From Sphingobium sp. V4 (GTDB taxonomy: Bacteria > Pseudomonadota > Alphaproteobacteria > Sphingomonadales > Sphingomonadaceae): DNA of 64,000 nucleotides. The notes below the pieces were generated by a model that was given only the letters and a program-made list of their open reading frames with translations, searched no databases and was not told the origin of the DNA. Below are positions 6,335-49,013 of the stretch, piece by piece; the first letter of the stretch is position 1, and every line of letters starts with the position of its first letter. A program made the translations under genes and the position numbers. The stretch spans positions 2,170,001 to 2,234,000 of the forward strand of contig NZ_CP081001.1 in assembly GCF_029590555.1 (NCBI RefSeq). The letters run 5' to 3'.

Positions 6335-6352
6335 CGCCGCCCCATGGCCTTC

Positions 6353-7747
6353 CTATTCCAGCGCGTTCACGGCCGCAGCGAACGCATCGCCGCGCGCCTC
6401 GAAATCGCGGAACTGGTCGAAACTGGCGCAGGCCGGCGACAGCAGCACGATGTCGCCCGGCCGGGCCACCCGCGCGGCGCGGCGGACGGCGGCGCTTAGC
6501 ATCTCGCTGTCGTCCACCGCCATATGCGGACGCAGCAGGTCGGCGAACATATGGCCCGCTTCGCCGATGGTGTAGGCGTGGGCGACATTGGCGAAATGCG
6601 GAGCGCACTCGTCCAGATTGTCGGACTTGGCGACGCCGCCCAAGATCCAGTGGATACGGGGCTTGCCGTCGATCGCGGGCCAGGCGGCGAGCGCGGGCGC
6701 GGTCGAGGCGGCATTGGTCGCCTTGCTGTCATTGACGTAGAGGACGCCATTGCGGGTCGCCACGGCCTGCATCCGGTGGGGGAGAGAGGCGTAGCTGGCA
6801 AGGGCGTTGACGATGGTGTCCGTGTCGATGCCCAGCGCCTTTGCGACAGCGATCGCGACAGCCGCGTTCTGGGCGTTGTGCGGGCCTTGCAAAGCGGGCC
6901 AGCCTAGCTGTTCGACGGGGTCGATGTCGGACGAAGCCACCTCCACCACATCCTCCCCGCGGAGGCGAGGAACCATCTCCCCGGCGTGGATACCGGGCGC
7001 CAGGTCGGGAGATGGGTTGCCGCCTTGGCGGGAATGACGGACGATATGGGCGATGGTGCGGCTCGGCTCGTCCTCCGTAGCGATGACCGCGACATGCGCG
7101 GCCGACTGCATTTCAAACAGCCGCGCTTTCGACGCAATATAGCCCTCGAAGCCATTATAGCGATCCAGATGATCCGGCGTGATGTTGAGCAGCACCGCGA
7201 CATCGCAGTCCAGGCTGTGGGTCAGGTCGATCTGGTAGCTGGACAGTTCCAGCACATAGACGCCCACGCCGTGCAGGTTCGGCTCCAGCGGCGGCTGGCT
7301 GAGGATCGGCAGGCCGATATTGCCGCCCATCACGGCGGGATAGCCGGCCTGCTCGATGATGTGATGGATCAGCGCGGTCGTGGTCGACTTGCCGTTGGTG
7401 CCGGTGATGCCCACGACCTTGTGCGGCGGCAGCGTCGGCCGTGCGAGCGCGAACAGTTCGATGTCGCCGATGATCGGGACGCCCGCCAGCTTCGCGCGCA
7501 TGGCGATGGGATGCTTGTTCAACGGCACTCCGGGCGAAACGACCACCCCGTCGAAGCCGGCCAGGTCGATCTCCATCGGATCGCCCAGTTCCGCCTTTCC
7601 CTCCACCAGCGCACGGGCTTCCTCGCGACTGTCCCAGGCAACGACGCGCGCGCCGCTCGCCACCAGCGTGTCGACGGTGGCGAGGCCCGACCGGGCCAGC
7701 CCCAGCACGGCGTAGGTCTTGCCTGCAAAAGCGTCCGAAACGATCAT
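6353..7747 (-). CDS. murD: UDP-N-acetylmuramoyl-L-alanine--D-glutamate ligase (MurD) with a repeat-encoded insertion
   Basis: Adds D-Glu to UDP-MurNAc-L-Ala in the cytoplasm. Mur ligase motifs are intact: GITGTNGKSTTTALIHH (113-129), the central YVLELSSYQID and NITPDHLDRYNGFE. The protein has 464 residues, longer than the roughly 440 I would expect. Residues about 237-266 (starting RHSRQGGNPSPDL) do not look like MurD; they are encoded by a palindromic repeat at 6950-7040 whose relative sits between genes at 30730-30842. The reading frame is kept through it, and the flanking text (ATEDEPSRTIA before, VVEVASSDIDP after) joins naturally if the insert is removed. The insertion lies in the central domain, C-terminal to the ATP loop, probably on a surface loop. 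Confidence 0.96.
   Translation of the reverse strand: MIVSDAFAGKTYAVLGLARSGLATVDTLVASGARVVAWDSREEARALVEGKAELGDPMEIDLAGFDGVVVSPGVPLNKHPIAMRAKLAGVPIIGDIELFALARPTLPPHKVVGITGTNGKSTTTALIHHIIEQAGYPAVMGGNIGLPILSQPPLEPNLHGVGVYVLELSSYQIDLTHSLDCDVAVLLNITPDHLDRYNGFEGYIASKARLFEMQSAAHVAVIATEDEPSRTIAHIVRHSRQGGNPSPDLAPGIHAGEMVPRLRGEDVVEVASSDIDPVEQLGWPALQGPHNAQNAAVAIAVAKALGIDTDTIVNALASYASLPHRMQAVATRNGVLYVNDSKATNAASTAPALAAWPAIDGKPRIHWILGGVAKSDNLDECAPHFANVAHAYTIGEAGHMFADLLRPHMAVDDSEMLSAAVRRAARVARPGDIVLLSPACASFDQFRDFEARGDAFAAAVNALE
6950..7040. repeat. Palindromic repeat inserted in frame inside murD
   Basis: On the coding strand the element opens CCGTCATTCCCGCCAAGG and has 26-base arms at 7032-7007 and 6981-6956 that match in 20 of 26 positions (core CATCTCCC/GGGAGATG). 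It belongs to the family of the intergenic element at 30730-30842, which has the same CGTCATTCCCGC opening and the same CCCATCTCC and GGAGATGG core. This repeat type (CGTCATTCCCGCGAAGGCGG...) is common in alphaproteobacterial intergenic DNA by recollection. Here it adds about 30 codons to an essential gene without a stop or frameshift. Confidence 0.75.
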
Positions 7748-10250: not shown

Positions 10251-11693
10251 TCACCCCGCGCACTCCCGCGCCACGGTCACGTCGTCGAACGGCAGGACGC
10301 GGTCGCCGATGATCTGGCCCTGCTCATGCCCCTTGCCGGCCAGCAGCACGATGTCGTCGGAACCGGCCCGGCCGATGGCCGCGGCAATGGCGGCGCGGCG
10401 GCCGCCTATTTCCTCGGCGCCCGGCGCGCCCGCCAGAACGGCGGCGCGGATCGCCGAAGGGTCTTCGGAACGCGGATTGTCATCGGTGACGATGACATGG
10501 TCGGCGAGTTCCGCAGCGACCTTGCCCATCAGCGGACGCTTGCCCGCGTCGCGATCCCCGCCCGCGCCGAACAGCGCGATCAGCCGCCCCTTCGTGTGGG
10601 GACGCAGCGCCTCGATCGCGGCCTTGAGGCCGTCGGGCGTATGGGCATAGTCGACATAGACGGGGGCGCCCGCCTTGCTGATGACGGCGCGTTCCAGCCG
10701 GCCACGCACCGGCTGCACCCGGCCGAGCAGTTCCAGCACCTTGGCGGTGTCGCCGCCGCACGCGATGACGAGACCGGCGGCGGTCAGCGCATTGGCGGCC
10801 TGATAGGCGCCGATCAGCGGCAGGTTGACCTTGTAGAGCTTACCGTCCGCCTCGATCTCCAGCGTCTGGCCCAACTGGGTCGGGGTGCGGTTGGCGAGGC
10901 GGAGAGCCTGCCCCTGCACCCCGACGCTCAGCACACGAAGCCCCCGCTTCGTAGCCCGCGCGATAACCTTGTCCGACCATGCGTCGTCCGCCCAGACGAC
11001 CGCCGCGCCGTGGGGCGCGACCACTTCGTCGAACAGCCGCATCTTGGCGTCGAAATAGCTGTCCATGTCGCCATGATAATCCAGATGATCGCGCGACAGG
11101 TTGGTGAAGGCGCCGGCCAGCACCGGCAGACCTTCGGTGCGATACTGGTCCAGGCCATGGCTCGACGCCTCGAACGCGGCATGGGTGATGCCTTCGCGCT
11201 TGAGCCCCGACATGTTGGCCAGGAAGGTGACGATGTCGGGCGTGGTCAGACCCGTCGACACCTGATCGACCGAGGTGGTGACGCCCAGCGTGCCGATCGA
11301 CGCGGACTTGTGACCCAGCATCCGCCAGAGCTGGCGGGCGAGTTCGACCGTGCTGGTCTTGCCGTTGGTGCCGGTGACGGCGACGGTCACGTCCGGGAAG
11401 GGCGCGAAATAGCGCGCGGCGAGCAGCGCGAACAGGCGGCGGGGATTGGCATGGGCGATGTGAATCGTGCCCTCGACCCTTGCGTCGGGCCGGGCGACCA
11501 CGGCGACGGCCCCGGCCTTCACCGCGTCAGCGATGAAATCCTCGCCATTCACGCGCAGCCCCTGGAAAGCGCCGAAAATCGTCCCTGGCGCCACCTTGCG
11601 GTTGTCGATAGCAAAGCCCGTAACGGACGTGTCGAGGCCGGTGGTTTCACCGACCTCGACATCCAGCCCCTCGATAAGCGACCCGAGGCGCAT
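10251..11693 (-). CDS. murE: UDP-MurNAc-L-Ala-D-Glu--2,6-diaminopimelate ligase (MurE)
   Basis: Adds meso-diaminopimelate to the peptidoglycan precursor. The ATP loop TGTNGKTST is at 107-115. The DNPRSEDP motif near residue 405 carries the Arg typical of enzymes that take diaminopimelate rather than lysine, consistent with a Gram-negative wall. It has 480 residues. The start shares a base with the ftsI stop (TAATG). Confidence 0.97.
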   Translation of the reverse strand: MRLGSLIEGLDVEVGETTGLDTSVTGFAIDNRKVAPGTIFGAFQGLRVNGEDFIADAVKAGAVAVVARPDARVEGTIHIAHANPRRLFALLAARYFAPFPDVTVAVTGTNGKTSTVELARQLWRMLGHKSASIGTLGVTTSVDQVSTGLTTPDIVTFLANMSGLKREGITHAAFEASSHGLDQYRTEGLPVLAGAFTNLSRDHLDYHGDMDSYFDAKMRLFDEVVAPHGAAVVWADDAWSDKVIARATKRGLRVLSVGVQGQALRLANRTPTQLGQTLEIEADGKLYKVNLPLIGAYQAANALTAAGLVIACGGDTAKVLELLGRVQPVRGRLERAVISKAGAPVYVDYAHTPDGLKAAIEALRPHTKGRLIALFGAGGDRDAGKRPLMGKVAAELADHVIVTDDNPRSEDPSAIRAAVLAGAPGAEEIGGRRAAIAAAIGRAGSDDIVLLAGKGHEQGQIIGDRVLPFDDVTVARECAG

Positions 11694-13396
11694 TATTCTT
11701 TCTCCTTGTCGCCGTGCAGCAGCGGCATCAAATCCGAAATATCGACGTCCCGCCGCTCGTCCGGCATCACCCCCAGCATCGGGCCGGTGCGCTCCACCAC
11801 GCGCTTGACCACCGGGGCGGCGGTCCAGGCGGCGGTGCGCAGACCGAAGGCGCCGGTTGCCTCGTCCATGATCGCGACCACGACATAGCGGGGATTGTCC
11901 ATCGGGAAGGCAGAAGCGAAAGTCGTCACCAGCGAAGTCTTGTTGTAGCGCCCTTCCTGGGGCTTTTCGGCCGAACCCGTTTTGCCGCCCACCCGGAATC
12001 CCTTGGCGTCGGCGCTACGCCCTGTACCCGCCGACACGATCATCCGCAACAGTTGCCGCATCCGCGCGCTGGTCGCGGCGGAAAAGACCCGCCGTCCCTC
12101 CGGCACCTCGTCCGCGTCCAGCTTGCGGATCGTCGCCGGGCGCCACATGCCGCCATTGACCAGCGCGGCATAGGCGGTCGCCAGATGTAGCGGCGTCACC
12201 GCGATGCCATGGCCATAGGATACGGTCATAGTGGTGATGCGGCCCCAGCTGGACGGCCAGATGCCCTTCGCGCGCTCATTGAACTCGATCGGCGCGCGCT
12301 GGTCGAAATCGAGGCTGCGGAACAGCCGCTGCAACGGCGCGGCGCCCACTTCGTCGGCGATGCGCGCGGTGCCGATGTTGGAGCTGTGCACAAGGATTTC
12401 CGGCACGTTGATCCAGCGACCGAGCGAATGGTCGTCCTTGATGCGGAAACCCGCGACGGCGAGCGGCGCGGTCGCGTCATAGCGCTTCGCCATCGACGTC
12501 ACCACGCCGCTGTCCATGGCGGCGGCGATCGACAGCGGCTTGAACGAGGAACCCAGTTCGTAGCGCGCCTGCACCATATGGTTGCAGAGCGGCGAGTCGC
12601 TGCACCGGGTACCCGCGTATTTCTGCACCTTGTTGGGATCGAACACCGGGATGGAGGCCATGGCGATCACTTCGCCCGTATTGGCGTCCAGGATGATCCC
12701 GCCCGCGCCCTTGGCGCGCTGCGTCACCATCTGGTTGTAGAGTTCGCTTTCCAGCGCGCCCTGCACCCGGCTGTCGATCGAGATGGCGAAGGGCTTGCCG
12801 CGCAGCGCGGGGTCGATCAGCCGGTCGTTGAAGGCCGCCTCCACGCCCATGCCGCCCGCGCCCTCGCTGTTGGGGGCAAAGCCCAGCACATGGGCCGCGA
12901 GCGTCCGCTGCGGATAGAGCCGCTCCTTTTCGCGCGGGAATTCGATGCCGATCTCGCCCAGGGCGTTCACCGCCGCCACCTGTTCGGGCAGGGCGCGCCG
13001 GCGCAGATAGGCCCAGCCCCGGCCGGTCAGCTTCCTGCGGAAGGCCGATTCGGATTCGTCGGGGAAGATGTCGTGCAGCTTGCGCGCCAGTTCATCCGGA
13101 TCGCCGATCAGCTTCGAGGGGCGCACCGCGATCGAATAGGCGTCCATGGTCCGCGCCAGCGGCACGCCGTTGCGGTCGACAATATCCGCGCGCGCCGGCA
13201 CGAACGGTCCCAGCACGCCGTCGCCGCCCGCCCCATGCGCAAAAATGCCGACCCACAGGAGCCGGCCGATCAACACCGTCGTGATTGCCATGAACAGGAT
13301 GAGCAGCAACATCAGCCGGTTATGGGCGGTGGCGGTCAGGTTGACCCGTTGCTTGCCCGCCCGCGGCCCGCCCGGCTGGACGATGATCGTGGCCAT
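11693..13396 (-). CDS. ftsI: Septal peptidoglycan transpeptidase FtsI (PBP3)
   Basis: A class B penicillin-binding protein that crosslinks septal peptidoglycan with FtsW. It has a short cytoplasmic tail, one membrane anchor at about 28-50, a PBP dimer domain, and the transpeptidase domain with SSFK (283-286, Ser283 nucleophile), HSSN and KTGS. At 567 residues it is the usual length. It overlaps ftsL (TGATG) and murE (TAATG), the conserved dcw order. Confidence 0.96.
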   Translation of the reverse strand: MATIIVQPGGPRAGKQRVNLTATAHNRLMLLLILFMAITTVLIGRLLWVGIFAHGAGGDGVLGPFVPARADIVDRNGVPLARTMDAYSIAVRPSKLIGDPDELARKLHDIFPDESESAFRRKLTGRGWAYLRRRALPEQVAAVNALGEIGIEFPREKERLYPQRTLAAHVLGFAPNSEGAGGMGVEAAFNDRLIDPALRGKPFAISIDSRVQGALESELYNQMVTQRAKGAGGIILDANTGEVIAMASIPVFDPNKVQKYAGTRCSDSPLCNHMVQARYELGSSFKPLSIAAAMDSGVVTSMAKRYDATAPLAVAGFRIKDDHSLGRWINVPEILVHSSNIGTARIADEVGAAPLQRLFRSLDFDQRAPIEFNERAKGIWPSSWGRITTMTVSYGHGIAVTPLHLATAYAALVNGGMWRPATIRKLDADEVPEGRRVFSAATSARMRQLLRMIVSAGTGRSADAKGFRVGGKTGSAEKPQEGRYNKTSLVTTFASAFPMDNPRYVVVAIMDEATGAFGLRTAAWTAAPVVKRVVERTGPMLGVMPDERRDVDISDLMPLLHGDKEKE

Positions 13397-37686: not shown

Positions 37687-38676
37687 TTATTGCGGGCGAT
37701 GCCCCTTGCGCCACTTGGTCCAGAGGTGCCGCGCCAGCATCAGCGGCGGCATCCGCAGCCAGTGGGAGCGGAGATAGAAAGCGAAGACCAGCGGCTTGGC
37801 GGTTTCCTGCCCCCAGCCGTTGCGGGCGAGCAGGCGCGCACGGACCAGCCGGTCCCGGAGGGTGAGCCGCGCGCCGTCGCCATAGAGGGCGGCGGCGAGG
37901 CGCCGGGCCTGACGGACATGGGACAGCAGGCCGTGCCGGACGGCGCGCGCTTCCAGCGCCGCCGGATCGGCATCGGACAGCAGGCAATATATGTCCCACA
38001 GGTTGCGCAGGCCGCCCTGCAAGTCGCCGTCGGCCAGCATGTGCGCCGCCGCGTGGATGATCCGGTCCTCGGGCGAGAGGATATATAATCCATCGGTTAT
38101 CGCAACGGCGTCCGCGATCATCGCGGCGGCATCGGGCGTCTGGCGCGCGGTCAGCGGCAGCACGGTATGATGCACGTCGATCATCCGGTCCCGCTCCCGA
38201 TGGATCATCGGCGGCAGTTCGTGCATCCACTGGCGATAATAGGCGTCGTCATAGGGATCGGGCTTCACCCATTCCCAGCCGGCCGCCATCATCGCCCTTT
38301 CCGCCACCGGCATGGCGTCGCGCGGCACGAGAATGTCGAGATCGCCGATGAAACGCCCCTGCCCGGCGCGCAGCCCGGCGGCGGCATAGGCCGTGCCCTT
38401 GAGCAGGATGGTCGGCACGCCGGTTCCGCGCAACGCATCGACGCAGCGATCCGCTTCCCACAGCGCCTGTCGCGCTTCCCGGTCGGTGTCGCGCCGGGCG
38501 TCGGCCAGGATCGGCGCGACCGCGCGTGGCACGGCGACTGGCTCCAACCGGTGCGCCAGGGTGCCGATCAGCCGCTCGGCGCGGGCGGCGGCGATCAGGC
38601 CGTTCCAGCCCGTGGCGTCCAGGCCCGCGACGGCGGCGGGATCGCGCAGCGCACGGACCAGCAGCACCGCGCTCAT
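37687..38676 (-). CDS. Nucleotidyltransferase family protein (PF14907 type) of the HPr-rel-A cluster
   Basis: 329 residues from the ATG at 38676, which overlaps the HprK-like gene stop (ATGA). It has the nucleotidyltransferase motif GRFIGDLDILVP with the metal Asp pair and an adjacent VPTILLKGTAYAAAG, typical of this family. The C-terminus is helical and basic (WTKWRKGHRPQ). In other genomes this family occurs with PqqD-like and HprK-like genes in surface-polysaccharide or modified-peptide regions. Substrate unknown. Confidence 0.82.
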   Translation of the reverse strand: MSAVLLVRALRDPAAVAGLDATGWNGLIAAARAERLIGTLAHRLEPVAVPRAVAPILADARRDTDREARQALWEADRCVDALRGTGVPTILLKGTAYAAAGLRAGQGRFIGDLDILVPRDAMPVAERAMMAAGWEWVKPDPYDDAYYRQWMHELPPMIHRERDRMIDVHHTVLPLTARQTPDAAAMIADAVAITDGLYILSPEDRIIHAAAHMLADGDLQGGLRNLWDIYCLLSDADPAALEARAVRHGLLSHVRQARRLAAALYGDGARLTLRDRLVRARLLARNGWGQETAKPLVFAFYLRSHWLRMPPLMLARHLWTKWRKGHRPQ

Positions 38677-39536
38677 GCCATCTCTTCCCACAGGCGATCG
38701 ACCATGGCGAACGCGGCATCGCCCGAAGGGAAGTCGATCGCGCGCGCGGGCACGGCCTGGACGAAACGGGTCAGCGCTGCGAAACCCGGTTCGCCGAGCG
38801 CCACATAATTGGTCGACGCCTGGGTCAGCCGCATGAAGATTTCCCCCTGCCCCACGGCGCGCACATCGGCGGCATGACCGAAACGGGGAAAGAGCAGAAG
38901 GCGCGGCATCCCGCCTTCGTCCATCCGGGCGACGGCGTCGCCCCGCGGCATCATATGGCGGATGTCGCCCTTCGCGGTCGCGCGCAGCAGCGGCCCCATC
39001 CGCGCGTCGCCGACCGCATCCGCGACGACGTCGATCGCACGATTCTTGAGCGATACTAGGCGCGGGAAGGGCAGGATCGCGCCACTGTCGAGATCGAGCA
39101 GGGCGAACTCGTCGCCCATGAAGCGCCAGCCGCGTTCCCCCAGCAGCGCCGCCAGCGTCGACTTGCCCGATCCGGATTCGCCGGTCATCACCAGCACGCG
39201 CCCGTCCTTCTCGACGCTCGACGCATGGAGCAAAAGGTGCCGCCGCCAGCCCAGCGCCATTTGCAGGTTCATCCCCATTTCGGCGGCGAGCAGGCCGTGC
39301 GCGAGGCTCATCGGCGCGGCATCGGCCAGGCCATGGTCGCCGGTGATGAAGATGGAGGGCCGTATCCAGCGGCGCGCGAGGCTGGTCGGCTGGAGCCGGA
39401 CAGTGAAATCGGCGATGGCGTCCCCGGCCTGCGGATAGGCGGCGTAGAGGCGCGCCAACTGGTCGATCGGCGCGCGCCACGCCGATCCGATGCGGAAGCT
39501 GGCGGGGCCGATACGAAGCGTCAGCCTATGCCTCAT
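38673..39536 (-). CDS. HprK-related kinase A
   Basis: 287 residues. The kinase P-loop GESGSGKST is at 119-127, followed by GDEFALLDL (139-147), the arrangement in HPr kinase/phosphorylase C-terminal domains. No phosphotransferase system genes are present here, so this is the HPr-rel-A kinase family (TIGR04352 by recollection). It overlaps the PqqD-like gene before it and the nucleotidyltransferase after it (ATGA each), so the three act together. Target unknown. Confidence 0.85.
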   Translation of the reverse strand: MRHRLTLRIGPASFRIGSAWRAPIDQLARLYAAYPQAGDAIADFTVRLQPTSLARRWIRPSIFITGDHGLADAAPMSLAHGLLAAEMGMNLQMALGWRRHLLLHASSVEKDGRVLVMTGESGSGKSTLAALLGERGWRFMGDEFALLDLDSGAILPFPRLVSLKNRAIDVVADAVGDARMGPLLRATAKGDIRHMMPRGDAVARMDEGGMPRLLLFPRFGHAADVRAVGQGEIFMRLTQASTNYVALGEPGFAALTRFVQAVPARAIDFPSGDAAFAMVDRLWEEMA

Positions 39537-39820
39537 GCCGGGCGCACCAGTCCGAGCGCGACCAGCGCGTCGAGATGCGCCGCGATCTGAGGCAGCGCGG
39601 TTTCGCGTGGGCCAAGGTCGAAGCTGTGGGCCAGCCGGTCATGCACCTCCGCCGCGCTGACGCACTCGCCGACCCGCATCTGGTCGAGAATCTCGGGCAC
39701 CGGGCTGATGACCATATGGGTCTGGCCCGAACGGGGATGATAGAGGAGGACAAGATCGTCGAGCACGCAGGCGCGGGTCGCATCCCGCGCCTCCAGCCGA
39801 TAATGTTCCGTCGCTTCCAC
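39533..39820 (-). CDS. PqqD-like protein of the HPr-rel-A system
   Basis: 95 residues with a GTG start at 39820 (V/MEATEHYRLEARD). The DDLVLLYHPRSGQTHMVISPVPEIL segment and the winged helix that follows resemble PqqD, a peptide chaperone that binds RiPP precursors. It starts the coupled block PqqD-HprK-nucleotidyltransferase. In this family the protein may bind a small peptide or protein substrate; the Tat-exported protein at 41164-41604 is a candidate. Confidence 0.82.
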   Translation of the reverse strand: MEATEHYRLEARDATRACVLDDLVLLYHPRSGQTHMVISPVPEILDQMRVGECVSAAEVHDRLAHSFDLGPRETALPQIAAHLDALVALGLVRPA

Positions 39821-39882
39821 TTGCCGGCGCTCCTGCTGCTCACCCCCTCCTAGCGCGGGAGAGTAGCCAAGTGCCTAACGTA

Positions 39883-41043
39883 TCAGGGAAAGGCAGGCGA
39901 TGGGATCGGTTGGCGTTCCGGCTGGCGCGCGATGGAGGCGAAGGCGCGGAGATAGGCGTCGAGTGCGGGCGCCAGACCATGGGCGCGCACCGCGCAGGAC
40001 AATTGCGCGGGGGCGGCCGGCCGGGCCAGCGCCCGTTCGATGGCGCGGGCGAAGGCGGCGGCATCGCCGACCGGCACGGGAGGATGCTGGCCTGCCGCCG
40101 CCAACAGAGATCGGATATTGGGGGTGCTGTCGGTGGCGACGACTCCCGCGCCGCAGGCCATCGCCTCGATCAAGGTGGCGCACAGCCCCTCCCAGCGCGA
40201 CGGCTGGAGGAGCAGGTCCGCCTCCCCCATCAGTGCGGCGATCCGATCGGGATCGCCGACATAGCCCAGGAAATCGATCCGGTCGGCAATGCCGAGATCG
40301 CGCGCCTGCCGCTCCAGCGCCGCCCGCAGCGGCCCGCGCCCCGCGATCGCCAGCCGCCAGTCGAGATGGGGCAGCCGCGCCAGGGCGGCGAGCGCCGTCG
40401 CCTGGTCCTTCTGCGGCGCGAGGCGGCCGACCATCAGCAGGCGGAAGGGCTGGTGCGGTTCGCGCGGCAGGCGCCGGTCGCGCGCCCGCTCCATCGCCGG
40501 CGTCACCGTCGGGCGCGGCAGCAGGCGCACGTCCCCGCTGTCCGTCAGCAGCGCACGGTCATGTTCGCCCATTACGATCGTCAGCGCCGACAGGCGGGTG
40601 ATCGCCCGGAAGCGCCGGACCCGCGCCCAGGCGCCGAGCGCGGGCTGGGCCGGGCGGACGATCGGGTTGGAAATGCGCGCCACCGATCGGGTTGCCGTGC
40701 CGAGGCAGGCCAGCGCCGCCAGCATGTTGCTCTGGTTGCCCGCCGAATAGAGAATGTCGGGCCGGTGGCGGCGGACCATCGCGTGCAGCGCCGGGAACTG
40801 ACCGATCATCGCGAGCCGACGCGTTCCGCGCGGCGCCGGCACGCGCCGGACGACCAGACCCGGATCGATCAGGTGCGCGTTCAGGCCATCCGTGCGCGTC
40901 ATCCAGAGCTCGACCGCGACGCCGCGGGCGAGCAGATGGTTGGCGAGCAGGATGGCCACGCGATCCAGCCCGCCGTCGCCCGGTTGATAGAGATAGACCG
41001 CAACGGAAAGTGCGGGCGCCGATGGCGCGAGAGAAGGATGCAT
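39883..41043 (-). CDS. Glycosyltransferase family 4
   Basis: 386 residues. GT4 landmarks: an N-terminal GGLDRVAILLANHLLARG, LLMVGRLAPQKDQATALAAL linking the two domains, and the acidic donor motif with EGLCATLIEAMACG near the C-terminus. It precedes the PqqD-like gene by 62 bases on the same strand and follows the Tat protein gene by 120 bases. It would transfer a sugar from a nucleotide donor to an unknown acceptor, perhaps the product of this cluster. Confidence 0.88.
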   Translation of the reverse strand: MHPSLAPSAPALSVAVYLYQPGDGGLDRVAILLANHLLARGVAVELWMTRTDGLNAHLIDPGLVVRRVPAPRGTRRLAMIGQFPALHAMVRRHRPDILYSAGNQSNMLAALACLGTATRSVARISNPIVRPAQPALGAWARVRRFRAITRLSALTIVMGEHDRALLTDSGDVRLLPRPTVTPAMERARDRRLPREPHQPFRLLMVGRLAPQKDQATALAALARLPHLDWRLAIAGRGPLRAALERQARDLGIADRIDFLGYVGDPDRIAALMGEADLLLQPSRWEGLCATLIEAMACGAGVVATDSTPNIRSLLAAAGQHPPVPVGDAAAFARAIERALARPAAPAQLSCAVRAHGLAPALDAYLRAFASIARQPERQPIPSPAFP

Positions 41044-41163
41044 GTGCCGCGTCTGCCGTTGAACCGAACCGTTGCAGGTTCGACGGTGTCAACGCTCCCA
41101 AGCCGTACCGGTTCTGGTCGTTGCGCTGGCGAGCGGGCGCTGTCGTCGCGGAAAAAGGTCGGA

Positions 41164-41604
41164 TCAGCGCGGCATTTGCAGGGAGGCGTAGCAGGTGAAG
41201 CCGCTCGTCCCCTGTTGCAGGCGGCGAATATAGTTGAGATAGGCCTGGTTCTGGTCGTAGCTGGTGCCAGGCAGCGGGCGACCGCGCAGCGCCTGTTTCA
41301 CCTGTTCGCCGGTGAAGCTGCGCCCGGTGCCGGGAAAGGCGCCCGGCGTGCCGGCGGGCACGACCTGACCATTGGGGGCGATATAATTGCCCGCCCGGCC
41401 ACCGTCGGGCACGGGGATGGTGCAGTTGAGCACCGAGGCGGCGGTGTTGGCGAGCGCAGGACGGATCGACACGATCGCGGAAGCCGCGACCGCGCCGCCC
41501 ATCAGCAACTGGCGGCGCGAGGCAAGCGCCCCGTCGGCCGGATTTTCCGGCGCCGGCGCGGCCTGCGGCAGAATGCCGTCCTGATCGGGCGTCGTTTCGC
41601 TCAT
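41164..41604 (-). CDS. Small Tat-exported protein with two cysteines, unknown function
   Basis: 146 residues. A twin-arginine signal SRRQLLMGGAVAASAIV (RR at 30-31) ends near residue 52 (RPALA-NT). The mature part has two cysteines, Cys61 and Cys138, that could form a disulfide, and a Gly- and Pro-rich middle. No family recognised. It opens the five-gene minus-strand group and may be the substrate of the HPr-rel-A enzymes; this is inference from neighbourhood only. Confidence 0.68.
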   Translation of the reverse strand: MSETTPDQDGILPQAAPAPENPADGALASRRQLLMGGAVAASAIVSIRPALANTAASVLNCTIPVPDGGRAGNYIAPNGQVVPAGTPGAFPGTGRSFTGEQVKQALRGRPLPGTSYDQNQAYLNYIRRLQQGTSGFTCYASLQMPR

Positions 41605-41704
41605 CTGATCCTGTTTCGCATCCCGCGCTTGCCAAAGCGTAAAGATTGCACGCTATTGCGGCGAGACATTGCAGCAAATGCGCGACAAATCCAGTGCGGT
41701 AACC

Positions 41705-42991
41705 ATGAATCGACTCAGTATTTCCCAAATCACCGCTTCGCTCGCGATGCTGATGCTGGGCACCGGCGGCGCCTTGATGCTGGGCGCGCACCCGATCAGC
41801 ATCGCCCTGCCGGTGCTGGCGGGTGTCATTGTGCTGATTATCACATCGGGAGATGCCGGCCTGCGCCCGGCGGCGCCCAGTGTGGTGCCGGACCAGCCCG
41901 ACCTGATCGCCCATCCCGACTTCGCCAGCCTGCTGGAGGGTATTTCCGATCCGCTGATGCTGGTGGAAAAGGGGCGGATCGTGCGCGCCAATCGCGCGGC
42001 GCAACGCCTGCTGGGCGCGCATATCGAGGGCGAGGACGCCCGCATCGCCATCCGCCATCCCGCCGCCGCCGAACGGCTGGCGAGCCTGGCGCCGCTGGCC
42101 GAACCGATCATGATCGAGCTGGTCGGCTTGGGCACGCGCGACCAGCGCTGGCAGATGCGGGTGGCGCCGGTGGGCGCGGTCGCGGACATGCGCCGCCTGG
42201 TCCATCTCGTCGACCATAGCGGCACCCATGCGGCCGAGCGGATGCGCGTCGATTTCGTCGCCAATGCCAGCCATGAACTGCGCACGCCGCTGGCGGGCAT
42301 ATTGGGCTTCATCGAGACATTGGCCGACCCGGAACTGGGCAAGGATGTCGAGACGCGCAAGCGTTTCCTCCAGATCATGGACCGGGAGGCGCGCCGGATG
42401 CAGCGGCTGATCGACGACCTCATTTCGCTCAGCCGGATCGAATCGGAGAAATATCGCCTGCCCGACGCGCGGGTGGACCTGTCCGAACTGGCCGCCGAAG
42501 TGGTCAGCGTGTTCCGCTCCAGCCATGGCGAGCGGGGCCGCGAGGTGGAAATGGAGATCGCGCCGCATGTCCCTGTCGTGCAGGGCGACCGGGCGCAGCT
42601 GTCGCAGCTGCTCCACAATCTGATCGGCAATTCGGTCAAATATGGCCGCCCCGGCACGCCGATCCGGGTGATGCTGAACGAAGGGCCGAGCGGCATGGCG
42701 CGGCTGGTGGTCGCCGACGAGGGCGAAGGCATCGGTCCCGACCATCTGCCGCGCCTGACCGAGCGCTTCTACCGCGTCGATTCGGGACGCAGCCGGGCGA
42801 TGGGCGGCACGGGCCTGGGCCTGGCCATCGTCAAGCATATCGTGGAGCGGCATCGCGGCCGCTTCGACATAGCCAGCACCCTGGGCAAGGGCACGACCAT
42901 CACCGTGCTGCTGCCCCCGCCGGTCGAGGAAAGCCAAGGCAAGATCGACGAAAAAAAGCGCCCATCGGCGCTTTCCGACACGGTGTCATGA
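41705..42991 (+). CDS. phoR: Phosphate regulon sensor histidine kinase PhoR
   Basis: Senses phosphate limitation through the Pst system and phosphorylates PhoB. 428 residues from the ATG at 41705 (MNRLSISQITASL); a start at 41678 is possible. Two N-terminal hydrophobic segments, a PAS-like region at 70-130, the H-box NASHELRTPLAGI with His190, then the HATPase N and G boxes (HNLIGNSVKYG, GTGLGLAIV). It is divergent from the Tat gene and heads the pst operon; its final codons overlap the Pho box. Confidence 0.93.
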   Translation: MNRLSISQITASLAMLMLGTGGALMLGAHPISIALPVLAGVIVLIITSGDAGLRPAAPSVVPDQPDLIAHPDFASLLEGISDPLMLVEKGRIVRANRAAQRLLGAHIEGEDARIAIRHPAAAERLASLAPLAEPIMIELVGLGTRDQRWQMRVAPVGAVADMRRLVHLVDHSGTHAAERMRVDFVANASHELRTPLAGILGFIETLADPELGKDVETRKRFLQIMDREARRMQRLIDDLISLSRIESEKYRLPDARVDLSELAAEVVSVFRSSHGERGREVEMEIAPHVPVVQGDRAQLSQLLHNLIGNSVKYGRPGTPIRVMLNEGPSGMARLVVADEGEGIGPDHLPRLTERFYRVDSGRSRAMGGTGLGLAIVKHIVERHRGRFDIASTLGKGTTITVLLPPPVEESQGKIDEKKRPSALSDTVS

Positions 42992-43016
42992 AAATGAAAC
43001 CTGACTGTCACAAAGG
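42984..43016 (+). promoter_or_regulatory. Pho box: three 11-bp units before pstS
   Basis: TGTCAT (42984), TGAAAC (42995) and TGTCAC (43006) are in exact 11-bp register. PhoB boxes are direct repeats of CTGTCAT with 4-bp spacers, 11-bp period. The first unit overlaps the phoR stop codon. This places pstSCAB-phoU-phoB under PhoB control from within the phoR end. Confidence 0.75.
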
Positions 43017-43094
43017 CGCGATGGTCCGCGACTAGGGCGCTTCCTCAAGGGGGGCGGCGACATGCGACTCGCGGCCTTGATGATGGAGGTTTCC

Positions 43095-44147
43095 GTGACG
43101 AAGTTCGCCCTGCTCGCTGCTACGACCGCGAGCATTTTCAGCCTTGCCGCCTGCGGCGACCAGACCGGCGGCGCCGGCGCCACCCGCGACCAGATCCGCG
43201 CGGTCGGCTCCTCCACCGTCTATCCCTTCGCTACGGCAGTCGCCGAACTGTTCGTGCAGGGCAATGCCGGCATGAAGTCGCCGATCATCGAATCGACCGG
43301 CACCGGCGGCGGCATGAAGCTGTTCTGCGCGGGCGTGGGCGCCCAGCATCCCGACATCGCCGACGCATCGCGCCGGATGAAGAAGGCCGAATTCGAACAG
43401 TGCCAGGCCAATGGCGTCAAGGACATCGTCGAGATCCAGATCGGCGTCGACGGCCTTGCCTTCGCAGAAGCCAAGAACGGCCCCGGCCTGAAGCTGACCC
43501 CCAAGATCGTCTATGAGGCACTGGCCGCCAATCCCTATGGCAAGGGTCCGAACAAGGCGCAGACCTGGAAGGATGTCGACCCCAGCCTGCCGGCCATCGC
43601 CATCTCCGTATTCGGCCCGCCTTCCACCAGCGGCACCCGCGACTCGCTCGCCGAACTGATCCTGGAAAAGGGCTGCCAGAGCGACGAAGCGATGAAGGCG
43701 CTCAAGGAAAAGAATGAGGACGAGTATAAAGCGACCTGCACCCGCGTCCGCGAGGACGGCAAATATGTCGATTCGGGCGAGAACGACAATCTGATCGTGC
43801 AGAAGCTGGGCGCGAACCCCAATGCGGTCGGCGTATTCGGATACAGCTTCCTGGAGGAAAACAAGGATTCGCTGAAGGACGTGCCGGTCAACGGCGTCGA
43901 GGCGACCTATGAAACCGTGTCGACCGGCCAGTATCCGGGCGCCCGTCCGCTCTACATCTATGTGAAGAAGGCGCACATGACGGCCATCCCCGGCCTCCAG
44001 GGCTTCCTCAACAGCTTTGCCGCCAACTGGAACCCCGGCGGCGCGCTGACCAAGCGCGGCATGGTCGCGGCGCCGGAAGATGTGCGCAAGAAGAGCGCCG
44101 AAACCGTCAAGTCGCTGACTGTCCTCGACGGTTCGCAGCTGAAGTAA
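43095..44147 (+). CDS. pstS: Phosphate-binding lipoprotein PstS
   Basis: The periplasmic phosphate receptor of the Pst ABC transporter. I chose the GTG at 43095 because GGAGG lies 5 bases upstream; ATGs at 43062-43083 are also in frame. The lipobox SLAAC places the lipid on Cys20. The binding motif RAVGSSTVYPF is near the start of the mature protein and STSGTRDSL near the middle. 350 residues. Confidence 0.93.
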   Translation: MTKFALLAATTASIFSLAACGDQTGGAGATRDQIRAVGSSTVYPFATAVAELFVQGNAGMKSPIIESTGTGGGMKLFCAGVGAQHPDIADASRRMKKAEFEQCQANGVKDIVEIQIGVDGLAFAEAKNGPGLKLTPKIVYEALAANPYGKGPNKAQTWKDVDPSLPAIAISVFGPPSTSGTRDSLAELILEKGCQSDEAMKALKEKNEDEYKATCTRVREDGKYVDSGENDNLIVQKLGANPNAVGVFGYSFLEENKDSLKDVPVNGVEATYETVSTGQYPGARPLYIYVKKAHMTAIPGLQGFLNSFAANWNPGGALTKRGMVAAPEDVRKKSAETVKSLTVLDGSQLK

Positions 44148-44154
44148 GGGCGAC

Positions 44155-45549
44155 ATGACCGGACCTGCAATCCTGCTGCTCCTGGCGGGCCTGGGCGCGA
44201 TCGCCTGGGTCAGCGCCCGCGCCCGCGCGCTGCGGTTACAGACCGCCGCGCGCGCCACCGGGCGGCGCGACGCCGTGCATAGCCTGCCGGGCTATCATGG
44301 CTGGTATGTCGCGCTGTGGACGCTGCTGCCCGCCGGCATCTTCCTGGCCGTATGGGCCAATGTGTCGCCGGGACTGGTGACCCAGGCCGTGCTGGCCGAC
44401 CCGGCGGCGCAGAGCCTGCCCCTCGACGCCTTCTCCCGCTCCGCCATCCTGGGCGAGGCGCGAGCGATCGCGACGGGGATGCAGGCCGGCGCCTTCAACC
44501 CGGCGTCGCAGGCGCTGGTCGAACCCTATCGCGCGGCGACCAGCAGCTATGGCGTCGGCGGCGCGGTGCTGGCGCTGATCCTGGCCTTTGCCGGGGGCGC
44601 CTATGCCTTCACCCGCGTCCGTCCCGACTTCCGGGCGCGCACGCGGGTCGAGCGACTGGTGATGGCGCTGCTGCTGCTCGCGTCGCTGCTGGCAATCGTC
44701 ACCACGCTGGGCATCGTCGCCTCGCTGCTGTGGGAAAGTTTCCGCTTCTTCTCGATGGTGAACCCGCTCGACTTCCTCTTCGGCCTGAAATGGAGCCCGC
44801 AGTCGGCCGCCATGGGCTATGGCAATGAGGATGCGTTCGGCGCCGTGCCGCTCTTTTGGGGCACGATCTTCATCGGCGCGATCATCGCGATGATCGTGGC
44901 CATCCCGCTGGGCCTGATGAGCGCGGTCTATCTGACGCAATATGCCAGCCCCACCGTGCGCCAGTGGATGAAGCCGATCCTGGAGGTGCTGGCCGGCGTA
45001 CCCACCGTCGTCTACGGCTATTTCGCCGCGCTGACCGTGGCCCCCGCGCTCCGCGACCTTGCCGTCTCGGTCGGCATCCATGGGGCCAGTTCCGAAAGCG
45101 CGCTGGCCGCTGGTCTGGTGATGGGCGTGATGATCATTCCCTTCGTTTCCTCCATGGCCGACGACAGCATCGCCGCCGTGCCGCAGTCGATGCGCGACGG
45201 CAGCCTGGCGATGGGCGCAACCACCAGCGAGACGATCACCCGCGTCCTCATCCCCGCCGCTCTCCCCGGCGTGGTGGGCGGCGTGCTGCTGGCCGTCAGC
45301 CGCGCCATCGGCGAGACGATGATCGTGGTGATGGCCGCGGGCCTGGCCGCCAACATGACGCTCAACCCCTTCGCAAGCGTGACTACGGTGACGACCCAGA
45401 TCGTCCAGCTGCTGACCGGCGACCAGGAATTCGACAGCGCCAAGACGCTGGCGGCCTTCGCGCTGGGGCTGGTGCTGTTCATCGTGACGCTGCTGCTCAA
45501 CATCGTGGCCCTGCGGGTCGTGAAGAAATATCGCGAGGCTTACGACTGA
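44155..45549 (+). CDS. pstC: Phosphate ABC transporter permease PstC
   Basis: One of the two membrane permeases of the Pst transporter. 464 residues, longer than E. coli PstC, with extra membrane segments at the N-terminus. The ABC transporter coupling region EAA loop is at SMRDGSLAMGATTSETI, followed by the permease core. It lies 7 bases after pstS and shares a base with pstA (TGATG). Confidence 0.93.
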   Translation: MTGPAILLLLAGLGAIAWVSARARALRLQTAARATGRRDAVHSLPGYHGWYVALWTLLPAGIFLAVWANVSPGLVTQAVLADPAAQSLPLDAFSRSAILGEARAIATGMQAGAFNPASQALVEPYRAATSSYGVGGAVLALILAFAGGAYAFTRVRPDFRARTRVERLVMALLLLASLLAIVTTLGIVASLLWESFRFFSMVNPLDFLFGLKWSPQSAAMGYGNEDAFGAVPLFWGTIFIGAIIAMIVAIPLGLMSAVYLTQYASPTVRQWMKPILEVLAGVPTVVYGYFAALTVAPALRDLAVSVGIHGASSESALAAGLVMGVMIIPFVSSMADDSIAAVPQSMRDGSLAMGATTSETITRVLIPAALPGVVGGVLLAVSRAIGETMIVVMAAGLAANMTLNPFASVTTVTTQIVQLLTGDQEFDSAKTLAAFALGLVLFIVTLLLNIVALRVVKKYREAYD

Positions 45550-46793
45550 TGACGGCCGAACGTCTCCCCACCGACTGGAAGTCGGACGTGATGCGCCGGC
45601 GGATCGCGCGGCGCTATGCCGCCGAGCGCCGCTTCCGCCTGCTGGGCCTGGGCGCGGTGGCGCTCAGCGCCGCCTTCCTCGCCTTCCTGCTCTTCACCAT
45701 GATGGGCAATGGCCTGCGCGGCTTCACCCGGACCGAGATCGCGCTCACGGTCGATTTCCCGGCCTCCCCGCTGCTGCTCGATCCCGCCGCCATCACCGAC
45801 GAGGCGCTCAACCAGGCCAACCTGCCGATGGTGACGGGCGAAGTCGCGAAAAAGGCGCTGGGCGCCGACGCCGACGCATGGCTGTCGCCCACCGCCTGGA
45901 TCAGCATCCGCGACGCAATCAAGGCCGATCCGAAAATTCTCGGCCGCACCGAAACGATCAGCGTCCCCGCCTCGACCGCGGTCGACCTGGCCGCCAAGAG
46001 CGATGGTTCGCCCGAGGCGGAAGCAGCGGTCGAGCGGCTGAACAAGGCGGGCGTCCTGTCGACCGGCTTCAACTGGAGCTTCCTGTCGGCGAGCGACGGC
46101 ACCGATCCGACGCAGGTCGGCATCTGGGGCGCGTTCAAGGGGTCGCTGCTGACGATGCTCGTCACCCTGGTGCTGAGCTTCCCCATCGGCGTCGCGACCG
46201 CCCTCTATCTGGAGGAATATGCGCCCAAGGCCTGGTGGACCGACATCATCGAGGTGTCGATCAACAACCTCGCCGCCGTGCCCTCGATCATCTTCGGCCT
46301 GCTTGGCCTGTCGATCTTCCTCAATTTCCTGCATCTGCCGCGTTCGGCCGCGCTGGTAGGGGGCATGACGCTGGCGCTGATGACCATGCCCGTCATCGTC
46401 ATCGCCGGGCGCAACGCGATCAAGTCCGTGCCGCCCAGCATCCGCGACGCGGCGCTCGGCATCGGCGCAAGCCCGGTGCAGGTGGTGTTCCAGCATGTGC
46501 TACCGCTCGCCCTGCCCGGCATCCTGACCGGCACGATCATCGGCATGGCGCGCGCGCTGGGCGAAACGGCGCCGCTGCTGATGATCGGGATGCGCGCCTT
46601 CATCGCCACGCCGCCGGGCGGGATCACCGATCCGGCCACGGTGCTGCCGGTGCAGATCTTCCTCTGGTCGGACGAAGTCTCCAAGGGCTTCGTCGAAAAG
46701 ACCTCGGCGGCGATCATCGTGCTGCTCGCCTTCCTGCTCGCGATGAACGGCCTCGCCATCTACCTGCGCAACAAGTTTGAAAAACGGTGGTAA
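45549..46793 (+). CDS. pstA: Phosphate ABC transporter permease PstA
   Basis: The second Pst permease. 414 residues with an N-terminal DUF3333-like region (about residues 20-200) before the permease core, an extension I know from alphaproteobacterial PstA. The coupling loop [18 protein letters not shown] and [14 protein letters not shown] are visible. It starts on the last base of the pstC stop. Confidence 0.93.
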
Positions 46794-46801
46794 AGACCCC
46801 C

Positions 46802-47590
46802 ATGACAGAAGAACAGCAAAGCCTGGCCATCGCCAACCCGAAGATGACCGCGCGCGACATCAAGGTCTTTTACGGCCCCAAGCAGGCGATCAAGGGCGTG
46901 TCGATCGATGTTGGCATGGACCATGTCACCGCCTTCATCGGCCCGTCGGGCTGCGGCAAGTCGACCTTCCTGCGGACGCTGAACCGCATGAACGACACCG
47001 TCGCATCGGCGCGTGTCGAAGGCACGATCACGCTGGACGGCGAGGATATCTACGCTCCGTCGATGGACGTGGTGCAGTTGCGCGCGCGGGTGGGCATGGT
47101 GTTCCAGAAACCCAACCCCTTCCCCAAGTCGATCTACGAGAATATCGCCTATGGGCCGCGCATCCACGGCCTGGCCGCGGGCAAGGCGGACATGGACGTG
47201 ATCGTCGAAAAGTCGCTGCGTCGCGCGGGCCTGTGGGAGGAAGTGAAGGACCGGCTGCACGACAGCGGCACCGCCCTGTCGGGTGGCCAGCAGCAGCGGC
47301 TGTGTATCGGCCGCGCCATCGCGGTCGAACCGGAAGTCATCCTGATGGACGAACCCTGCTCGGCGCTCGACCCGATCGCGACGGCGAAGATCGAAGAGCT
47401 GATCCACGAGCTGCGCGGCCGCTACGCGATCGTCATCGTGACGCACAACATGCAACAGGCCGCGCGCGTGTCGCAACGGACCGCCTTCTTCCACCTGGGC
47501 GAACTGGTCGAATATGGCGTGACATCCGACATCTTCACCAATCCGCGCCAGGAGCGGACCAAGGATTACATCACCGGCCGCTACGGCTGA
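46802..47590 (+). CDS. pstB: Phosphate ABC transporter ATPase PstB
   Basis: Drives phosphate uptake. 262 residues from the ATG at 46802; a GTG at 46787 overlapping the pstA end is possible. Walker [10 protein letters not shown] (47-55), signature [14 protein letters not shown], Walker B VILMDEP. Normal length. Confidence 0.96.
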
Positions 47591-47612
47591 TCCGGCGCGA
47601 GAGAGACGAGAC

Positions 47613-48308
47613 ATGGCAGAACATACGATCAAGGCGTTCGATCAGGAAATGGACAAGCTGCGCGGCCTGATCGCCGAAATGGGCGGTCGCGCGGAGGCGG
47701 CGATCGAGAATGCGATGCTGGCGCTGCAACGCCAGGACAAGGTGCTGGCGGCCGACGTCGTTGCCGCAGACAAGCGCATCGATGCGATCGAAGCGGAGGT
47801 CGAAAAGCTGGCTATCGAAATCATCGCGCTCCGCGCGCCGATGGCCAACGACCTGCGGGACGTGATCGCCGCGCTCAAGATCGTGAGCGTGGTCGAGCGG
47901 ATCGGCGATTATGCCAAGAATATCGCCAAGCGCGTGCCGCTGATCGCGACCAACACCCGCACGCTGGAGCCGATCTCGCTGCTGCCGTCCATGGGCCAGG
48001 TCGCTGGCGAGATGGTGCATGACGCGCTCAACGCCTTCGCCGCGCGCGACGCCGATCTGGCGCTGGCGGTGGTCGAGCGCGACACGGTGGTCGACGATTT
48101 CTACAACAGCATGTTCCGCACGCTCGTCACCTTCATGGTCGAAAATCCCAAGACGATCAGCGAATGTGCCCATCTGCTGTTCATCGCCAAGAATATCGAG
48201 CGGATCGGCGACCATGCGACCAATGTCGCGGAAATGGTCTATTATGCCGCGACCGGCCAGACCCTGCCCGAGCGCGAGCGCGGCGCCGACATTCAGCCGG
48301 AGGATTGA
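47613..48308 (+). CDS. phoU: Phosphate transport regulator PhoU
   Basis: A cytoplasmic helical protein that links Pst to PhoR and keeps the regulon off when phosphate is plentiful. 231 residues with two PhoU repeats, each with the metal-binding pattern (RIGDYAKNIAKR and RIGDHATNVAEM). It lies 22 bases after pstB and 3 before phoB. Confidence 0.96.
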   Translation: MAEHTIKAFDQEMDKLRGLIAEMGGRAEAAIENAMLALQRQDKVLAADVVAADKRIDAIEAEVEKLAIEIIALRAPMANDLRDVIAALKIVSVVERIGDYAKNIAKRVPLIATNTRTLEPISLLPSMGQVAGEMVHDALNAFAARDADLALAVVERDTVVDDFYNSMFRTLVTFMVENPKTISECAHLLFIAKNIERIGDHATNVAEMVYYAATGQTLPERERGADIQPED

Positions 48309-48311
48309 TCC

Positions 48312-49013
48312 ATGGCGCGAGCAAAAATGCTGCTGGTCGAGGATGACGCGGCGCTCGCCGAACTGCTCATCTGGCATTTCAAGCGCGAGGATTTCGACGT
48401 CGCCCACACGGTCGACGGCGAGGAGGCGCTGCTGATGGCGCAGGAAAACACGCCGGACATCGTGCTGCTCGACTGGATGGTCGAAAGCCTGTCCGGGATC
48501 GAAGTGTGCCGCCGCCTGCGCCGCATGAACGGCACCGCCAATATCCCGATCATCATGCTCACCGCGCGCGGCGAAGAAGAGGATCGGGTGCGTGGCCTCG
48601 AAACCGGCGCCGACGATTATGTGACCAAGCCCTTCAGCCCCCGCGAACTGGTGGCGCGCGTCGGCGCGGTGCTGCGCCGCGTGCGGCCGGCACTGGCCGG
48701 CGAGACGCTGACCTTCGCCGATGTCGAGATGGACACGGTGGGCCACAAGGTGCGCCGGGGCGGCCAGGTGATCCCGCTCGGCCCCACCGAATTCCGCCTG
48801 CTCAAGCATTTTCTGGAGCATCCCGGCTGGGTCTTCTCGCGCGAGCGGCTGCTCGACAGCGTGTGGGGCCAGGACAGCGACATCGAGCTGCGCACCGTGG
48901 ACGTCCATATCCGGCGCCTGCGCAAGGCGATCAACGGCGACGGGCAGTTCCAGGACATCATCCGCACCGTCCGGTCGGCGGGCTATGCGCTGGATACCGA
49001 GGGGATGAACTGA
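48312..49013 (+). CDS. phoB: Phosphate regulon response regulator PhoB
   Basis: An OmpR-type activator that binds Pho boxes when phosphorylated by PhoR. 233 residues: receiver domain with Asp54 (LLDWMVES), the switch Thr-Lys (LTARGE, KPFSPREL), and a winged-helix C-terminus with DSVWGQDSDIELRTVDVHIRRLR. In this genome phoB ends the pst operon rather than lying next to phoR. Confidence 0.95.
   Translation: MARAKMLLVEDDAALAELLIWHFKREDFDVAHTVDGEEALLMAQENTPDIVLLDWMVESLSGIEVCRRLRRMNGTANIPIIMLTARGEEEDRVRGLETGADDYVTKPFSPRELVARVGAVLRRVRPALAGETLTFADVEMDTVGHKVRRGGQVIPLGPTEFRLLKHFLEHPGWVFSRERLLDSVWGQDSDIELRTVDVHIRRLRKAINGDGQFQDIIRTVRSAGYALDTEGMN

Follow-up and report, generated by a model that had tools for sequence, protein, structure and literature searches.

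Which substrate is served by a kinase resembling HPr kinase when it is encoded beside a PqqD-like protein and a nucleotidyltransferase (NTase), next to a small protein with a signal for the twin-arginine translocation (Tat) pathway? The question is raised by five minus-strand genes in a stretch of 64,000 nucleotides (G000:C1:2170001-2234000; the whole stretch analysed is called the window) whose close relatives are Sphingobium. The answer that we consider fairly probable is a cytoplasmic modification pathway for the Tat-exported protein, a phospho-tailoring route like those of linear polyphosphorylated peptides (LPP) and lasso peptides in which the leader is the Tat signal and which serves the XrtA (exosortase A) exopolysaccharide system. 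The genes, their co-inheritance, a predicted fold of the ribosomally synthesized and post-translationally modified peptide (RiPP) recognition element (RRE), the conserved catalytic motifs and the statistical and positional tie to XrtA are what the data show, and are described below.

Identification of the HPr-rel-A cassette

A sequence-only reading of this DNA had listed the five genes, and all of them were recovered at the positions it gave. By model scores and gene order, PqqD_rel_X (39533..39820, minus strand, 95 amino acids, predicted RRE fold; TIGR04353, 63.7 bits, cut-off 35), the HprK_rel_A kinase (38673..39536, minus strand, 287 amino acids; TIGR04352, 228.5 bits, cut-off 200) and the NTP_transf_5 nucleotidyltransferase (37687..38676, minus strand, 329 amino acids; PF14907, 172.6 bits, cut-off 31.2) constitute the cassette curated as "HPr-rel-A". 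Both curated NCBIfam models are passed at this locus and their genes adjoin with a 4-base overlap; the ATGA overlaps described earlier are indeed present at both the PqqD/HprK and the HprK/NTase junctions. Upstream lie a GT4 glycosyltransferase gene, to which we return, and the gene of the small Tat protein (41164..41604, minus strand, 146 amino acids), the proposed substrate, which carries a twin-arginine (RR) signal and belongs to no known family. The kinase is not an HPr kinase/phosphorylase by TIGR00679 (17 bits, cut-off 240), and the PqqD-like protein does not reach the gathering score of PF05402, the PqqD of PQQ synthesis (13.1 against 23.4 bits). The NCBIfam models name the system without a substrate, whereas the present analysis proposes a substrate family and a link to XrtA; no paper using "HPr-rel-A" or "HprK-related kinase" was found in open-licence PMC.

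Co-inheritance and empty sites in Sphingomonadaceae

Carriage of the genes was compared over 149 genomes of the family Sphingomonadaceae. HprK_rel_A was over its cut-off in 48 of them and PqqD_rel_X likewise in 48, and a profile of the Tat protein (A1) matched 48 at E <= 1e-16, the three sets being the same 48 genomes; a search with the single Tat sequence reached 44 of these, with G005, G080, G094 and G143 recovered by the profile only. The best profile match in the other 101 genomes was at E = 7e-5, and five genomes fell between 7e-5 and 0.01. The Tat gene stands beside the cassette on the same strand at 45 of the 48 kinase loci. It lies next to phoR, apart from the cassette, in G038 and G116, and together with pqqD at another place in G036. 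Among close relatives, for which the best 80 of 228 loci were named, the Tat gene was present in 78, and the remaining two (L140 and L192) begin at the pqqD or kinase gene so that the Tat gene falls outside the stretch. A homologous-protein search scored 7992 candidates, of which 2283 were relatives at E <= 0.01, and no Pfam domain was seen in the 120 listed.

Two same-genus relatives of carriers, G102 and G130, have an empty site flanked by phoR and gph. The alignments to these two genes are separated by 64 and about 153 bases, and no match to any of the four cassette genes was found in the surrounding 11 kb. G112, G121 and G046 are less informative as empty sites, their flanks being different. 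As the Tat, pqqD, kinase and NTase genes are all missing together at the empty sites, the four behave as one unit. Independent events are few, only 4 of the 59 same-genus pairs among the 149 genomes being discordant for the cassette. On this pattern of inheritance the Tat protein is almost certainly a partner of the cassette and probably its substrate. It had been put forward from the sequence as the natural substrate; the partnership is upheld by co-occurrence, gene position, empty sites and the recurrence of an RR open reading frame (ORF) in other orders, and the substrate role is a probable one.

The cassette outside the family

HprK_rel_A was over cut-off in 8 of 241 genomes of the class and 51 of 397 of the phylum, and their 45 extra-family loci were all examined. 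An RR ORF within 1.5 kb upstream was picked automatically at 40 of these 45 kinase loci, as compared to 180 of 871 control windows from the same loci; at L202 the pick is a wrong-frame ORF, though a proper RR ORF is present there. The NTase profile matched 40 of the 45 loci and the family PqqD profile 32. A C-x-x-S motif near the C-terminus occurs in 24 of the 40 RR ORFs, typically as SCW[ST]S[FL], a set in which the motif of L199-L201 stands well before the end and that of L198 in a longer tail. Many of the other 16 are of a second type, marked by SPG[YFW]. Signal and gene position are thus conserved and the body varies, which may be read by analogy with leader/core systems. A gene cluster in L208 (c6) suggests that its substrate was missed by the automatic test.

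The second type carries an RR signal, often CSISGxxS followed by SPG[YFW], and aromatic residues, with no CxxS tail, and was seen in L204, L205, L223, L231, L232, L234, L235, L237, L238 and others. Besides, the genome of the window holds a paralogous kinase and NTase pair outside the window, at about 2311000-2313500 of G000:C1 (L111:4920-7450). This kinase has 369 amino acids, with an extra N-terminal part that is PqqD-like by eye, and the pair is preceded by a small RR-signal ORF (SEAIAKSGGGG...GNNGVGNGLDPQPPGNPPINDGPGTGPGNPG). Such an ORF precedes the paralogous kinase in four of five loci (L111, L112, L114 and L115; it was not seen in L113), lacking the GNNGVGNG part in L114, and all four ORFs have a serine at +2 past AxA.

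These observations bear on the alternative that survives best, which we nevertheless hold to be unlikely: that the Tat protein is a co-worker outside the cytoplasm in the same pathway, and that the target of the RRE, kinase and NTase is a different, unlinked peptide or protein. Co-inheritance by itself cannot separate a substrate from a co-worker. A mere co-worker is less expected where, from class to class, an RR ORF of varying body precedes the genes of RRE and kinase, and where the paralogous fused RRE-kinase and NTase of the same genome also come with a small RR-signal ORF upstream.

The Tat protein and its candidate serines

The protein begins with a signal containing R30 and R31, followed by a mildly hydrophobic stretch and an AxA ending at A52, in keeping with the pattern of Tat substrates, and continues as a mature region (53-146) with the C-terminal GFTCYASLQMPR; TatC was found in the genome. 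The twin arginines and exactly two cysteines (C61 and C138) are as the sequence-only reading had described them, and a disulfide between the two cysteines is possible. The protein has no Pfam match at E <= 5 and passes the cut-off of no NCBIfam family. The conserved residues that it was proposed to look for do exist: S57, C61, C138 and S141 are kept in all 33 aligned diverse relatives, along with R31, L34, P49, A52, A121 and G135, and R30 and R31 are kept in 50 of 50 aligned sequences. The rest of the mature protein is variable, some relatives having glycine-rich inserts. The RR pattern was present in 46 of 48 family Tat ORFs.

Two invariant serines are candidates for modification. S57 (codon 41434..41436, minus strand) lies five residues past the AxA and is invariant in 33/33 and 50/50 sequences, while S141 (codon 41182..41184, minus strand; 33/33) belongs to the C-x-x-S tail, which in the form [ST]CxxS is present in the C-terminal part of 48 of 48 family-sample and 78 of 78 named-locus proteins. 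Both TCN and AGC codons are used for S141 in the family sample (46 and 2, respectively; TCN only in the named loci), and hence the residue is kept as serine. The AxA has a serine within eight residues in 45 of 46 proteins of the family, in 37 of 40 from outside it and in 4 of 4 of the paralogous type, where composition alone predicts 20.7, 22.8 and 0.8; the AxA sites are regular-expression guesses that are rough for several extra-family proteins, and 46 of the 48 family ORFs were usable, L100 having been read from a wrong upstream RR. The serine position near AxA suggests a common rule across these proteins, and as the excess over composition is found there, S57 is favoured a little over S141 as the putative modified residue.

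A departure within the family is L098 (from G045), where the Tat-family ORF at 5355-5714 keeps the conserved mature part with no RR in frame, pointing to a frameshift or another start.

The uniformity of the C-terminal GFTCYASL stretch could also be taken to indicate a classical secreted RiPP, in which the product would be only a short piece of the precursor, such as the C-terminal tail, acting as a signal or as an antimicrobial. The RRE, kinase and NTase genes are of RiPP type, and a cluster of trypsin-like proteases (named by eye) is found at some extra-family loci. We regard this as improbable, since a protein with a Tat signal is expected to be exported whole, no dedicated exporter recurs among the family-locus clusters (pst, phoR, glm, gph and small toxin-like genes), and the window neighbours include no exporter apart from the pst set. 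The trypsin-like serine protease itself was observed at 9 of the 45 extra-family loci (L202, L204, L205, L214, L223, L231, L233, L237 and L238), and the one member scanned gave no NCBIfam match at E <= 1e-20.

Predicted enzymatic functions and comparison with known systems

The PqqD-like protein carries the PqqD_rel_X motif S31-G32-x-T34-H35. Its structural model (predicted local distance difference test, pLDDT, 93.8) has as first PDB matches lasso-peptide B1 proteins solved with their leader (5v1v, 5v1u and 6jx3), with sactipeptide enzymes also among them, and an RRE fold is therefore predicted. The kinase has H104, a P-loop GESGSGKS with K125, D142, E143 and K164; H104, K125, D142 and K164 occur in 98 of 98 sequences, and position 143 is Glu in 95% of the 98 and Asp in the five paralogues. 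Over 93 NTase sequences K93-G94 was invariant, 99% had D112-x-D114 and 97% had D167. Sequence searches of the PDB with kinase and NTase gave no match at E <= 0.01 and 0.1.

The closest described parallels are two systems of phosphorylated peptides. According to the sections consulted of a report on phosphorylated lasso peptides (PMC9266682), a C-terminal serine is the residue phosphorylated by the kinases PadeK, ThcoK and SyanK, of which SyanK comes from Sphingobium yanoikuyae, and PsmN is needed for the hexoses placed on that serine, either as a glycosyltransferase or as a nucleotidyltransferase with help from the host. Paeninodin and pseudomycoidin, as presented in those sections, resemble the cassette in having a HprK-like kinase acting on serine, an NTase-type protein and the RRE protein B1 (PMC9266682). 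Unlike in lasso systems, the proposed substrate here is an exported protein of about 94 residues when mature, and neither a B2 protease nor an asparagine-synthetase-like lasso cyclase was seen in the window neighbourhood.

The LPP clusters of Bacillota combine a precursor, an RRE, a HprK-like kinase and an NTP transferase, with S3 of the LPP core as the residue that LppK phosphorylates, as stated in the consulted part of their description (PMC13381572). The same part gives the role of LPPs as unknown and their genes as often placed in capsular polysaccharide loci (PMC13381572). The discrete RRE, kinase, NTP transferase and precursor of LPP (LppA/K/B/S/D/N) all have counterparts in the cassette and its proposed substrate, and the LPP precursors are given there as 35-200 amino acids long with the modified serine near a signal-peptidase-type cleavage site (PMC13381572). 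The differences are that LPP clusters are described with an SpI-like peptidase of their own, an exporter resembling MsbA and a leader with [Y/W]xxP (PMC13381572), whereas the leader here is a twin-arginine signal and the hosts are Proteobacteria and not Bacillota. Apart from the second permease of the pst set, at 46 kb, the window genes within about 6-8 kb were named by model, and neither an SpI-like peptidase nor an MsbA-like transporter was among them.

Association with the XrtA system

In the family sample, xrtA was over cut-off in 45 of 48 cassette genomes as compared to 53 of 101 others (Fisher p = 2.5e-7, a value inflated by shared ancestry). The better test is offered by the same-genus pairs differing in the cassette, only four in number; xrtA differs in the same direction in all four, as compared to a difference in xrtA in 1 of the 55 other pairs. 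The cassette is usually far from xrtA in family genomes, as in that of the window, where about 556 kb separate them on the same contig; in G048 and G052 the two are about 13 kb apart. Outside the family, 25 of the 45 loci contain an XrtA/PEP-CTERM gene over a curated cut-off (TIGR03087, 03088, 03108, 02915, 02917 or 03027; one gene counted per locus), and in a 26th candidate, L228, found from BLAST clusters, the gene was below the cut-off. The cassette thus shares with the XrtA/PEP-CTERM exopolysaccharide system a common genome profile and, at those 25 loci, the same locus; the Tat protein differs from PEP-CTERM proteins in its Tat-type signal and, by eye, in having no membrane-spanning C-terminal tail. 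The tie is statistical and positional, and a role in surface polysaccharide would follow from it by inference.

An asparagine-synthetase-like cluster stands near the RRE, kinase and NTase genes at 12 of the 45 extra-family loci (L203, L206-L208, L210-L213, L215, L221, L225 and L228), a gene list oddly like that of lasso clusters. Five of its members were scanned; four pass the XrtA amidotransferase model TIGR03108 and one fails, and all five were below the cut-off of the lasso cyclase model.

Proposed pathway

We infer the binding step, both reactions, the modified residue, the export and the function as follows. The PqqD-like RRE would bind to the precursor, with the signal region as the probable site, and present it to the HprK-like kinase, which may phosphorylate an invariant serine: S57 just past the cleavage site, which is slightly favoured, or the S141 of the tail. 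The NTP_transf_5 enzyme would then add a sugar or a nucleotide to the phosphate. The modified protein would leave by the Tat pathway, with signal peptidase I cutting off the leader and the two cysteines possibly forming a disulfide, and outside the cytoplasm it would serve the XrtA exopolysaccharide system.

Several points weigh against this proposal. S57 and S141 both remain candidates. The activity of PsmN, the lasso analogue of the NTase, is unsettled, the published data as given in the consulted sections allowing for a host glycosyltransferase (PMC9266682). Tyr and Trp are absent from residues 1-52, the leader of the window protein, which so lacks the [Y/W]xxP of lasso and LPP RREs, and the cassette kinase has Asp-Glu where lasso kinases reportedly have Asp-Asp. 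The fold match of the PqqD model has a Foldseek probability of 1.00 but a best E of 2.1e-3, none being <= 0.001, and the AlphaFold model of the Tat protein was set aside as too weak (mean pLDDT 63). RR was not found in 2 of the 48 family Tat ORFs, those of G080 (at a contig edge) and G045 (none in frame). Among the extra-family loci the automatic test found no RR ORF in 5 of 45, 13 of 45 have no PqqD-profile match and 16 of 40 RR ORFs have no CxxS tail. As to the XrtA link, three of the 48 cassette genomes (G010, G027 and G109) have no XrtA over cut-off, and because 53 genomes carry XrtA and no cassette, the cassette is dispensable for that system.

A bolder version, which we offer as a tentative possibility, is that these loci represent an undescribed and widespread proteobacterial class in which the Tat signal is a RiPP leader, a serine beside the signal-peptidase site receives a (poly)phosphate or phospho-sugar from a kinase and an NTase that the RRE recruits, and the product is a dedicated component of the XrtA system, for example as an anchor or primer of the polymer. 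If true, this Tat-leader class would mirror the LPPs of Bacillota and explain the surface-polysaccharide neighbourhood of both; the Tat pathway would bring to the cell surface a protein modified by a kinase, and tailoring of the RiPP type would reach beyond small peptides to exported proteins of about 100 residues. For a cassette that is curated but unexplained in many Proteobacteria, the comparison provides a probable substrate, testable residues and an exosortase-linked context. Additions to the sequence-only reading are the parallel to LPP and lasso systems, the link to XrtA and the probable role of the Tat signal as leader.

Neighbouring genes and the glycosyltransferase

Divergent from the cassette, at 41669-49013 on the plus strand of the window, lies a pho/pst set comprising a phoR-like gene, a PstS-like gene, permeases, an ABC ATPase, PhoU and a response regulator. 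Its first member, a PhoR-like histidine kinase (41669..42991, plus strand), borders the cassette on one side in relatives and scores 294 bits against its best model, TIGR02966, below the cut-off of 334. Over the 48 kinase loci of the family the recurrent neighbours were phoR-like (40), pstC/pstA (35), glmU (34), pstS-like (30), glmS (30) and gph-like (26) genes; the gene calls behind these clusters, like those at the extra-family loci, are heuristic and include wrong-frame ORFs, and at family loci other than the window only recurrent clusters were named, by their representatives. The representatives of PstA, PstC, GlmU and GlmS pass their models, those of PstS-like and phosphoglycolate-phosphatase-like clusters are below the model cut-off, and two small toxin-antitoxin-like neighbours named by eye match no NCBIfam model at E <= 1e-40. 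As functional partners phoR, pst, glmU and glmS were discounted: since phoR and pstS persist where the cassette is absent, the association is taken as housekeeping synteny.

The position of the phoR-like gene, mostly adjoining the Tat gene, might suggest that the cassette kinase is a regulatory kinase for phosphate sensing acting in the adjacent PhoR/Pst system, which we consider very improbable given that persistence, the score of the kinase far under the HPr kinase model and the extra-family loci, over half of which are XrtA loci.

The GT4 glycosyltransferase (39883..41043, minus strand, 386 amino acids, named from model matches) is by locus counts a local insertion, an accessory of some Sphingobium. 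It was found in 1 of the 48 family kinase loci and in 23 of the 80 close-relative loci, counts that exclude it as a core part of the cassette, and 20 of the 23 records bearing it are titled Sphingobium, the other three being less precisely named metagenome-assembled genomes. It is no XrtA-system glycosyltransferase by TIGR03088 (80.2 bits, cut-off 409). The earlier suggestion that Tat protein and glycosyltransferase might travel with the PqqD/HprK/NTase set, to be abandoned if neither ever did, thus holds throughout for the Tat protein and in those loci for the glycosyltransferase. That the cassette serves protein glycosylation, with the GT4 enzyme adding a sugar to the Tat protein, is highly unlikely with the gene not found in 47 of 48 family and 57 of 80 close-relative loci, even if it always lies between the Tat gene and pqqD where present (23/23); such glycosylation is possible as an accessory in some Sphingobium.

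In L128 (Sphingobium sp. Ant17), at 5912-7651, the Tat and glycosyltransferase genes are frame-split in the draft, by decay or sequencing error. Apart from these, the window contains a tmRNA at 11458-12161, called by ARAGORN, asterisk-marked and with the tag ARWRQGRFSALSRGCA.

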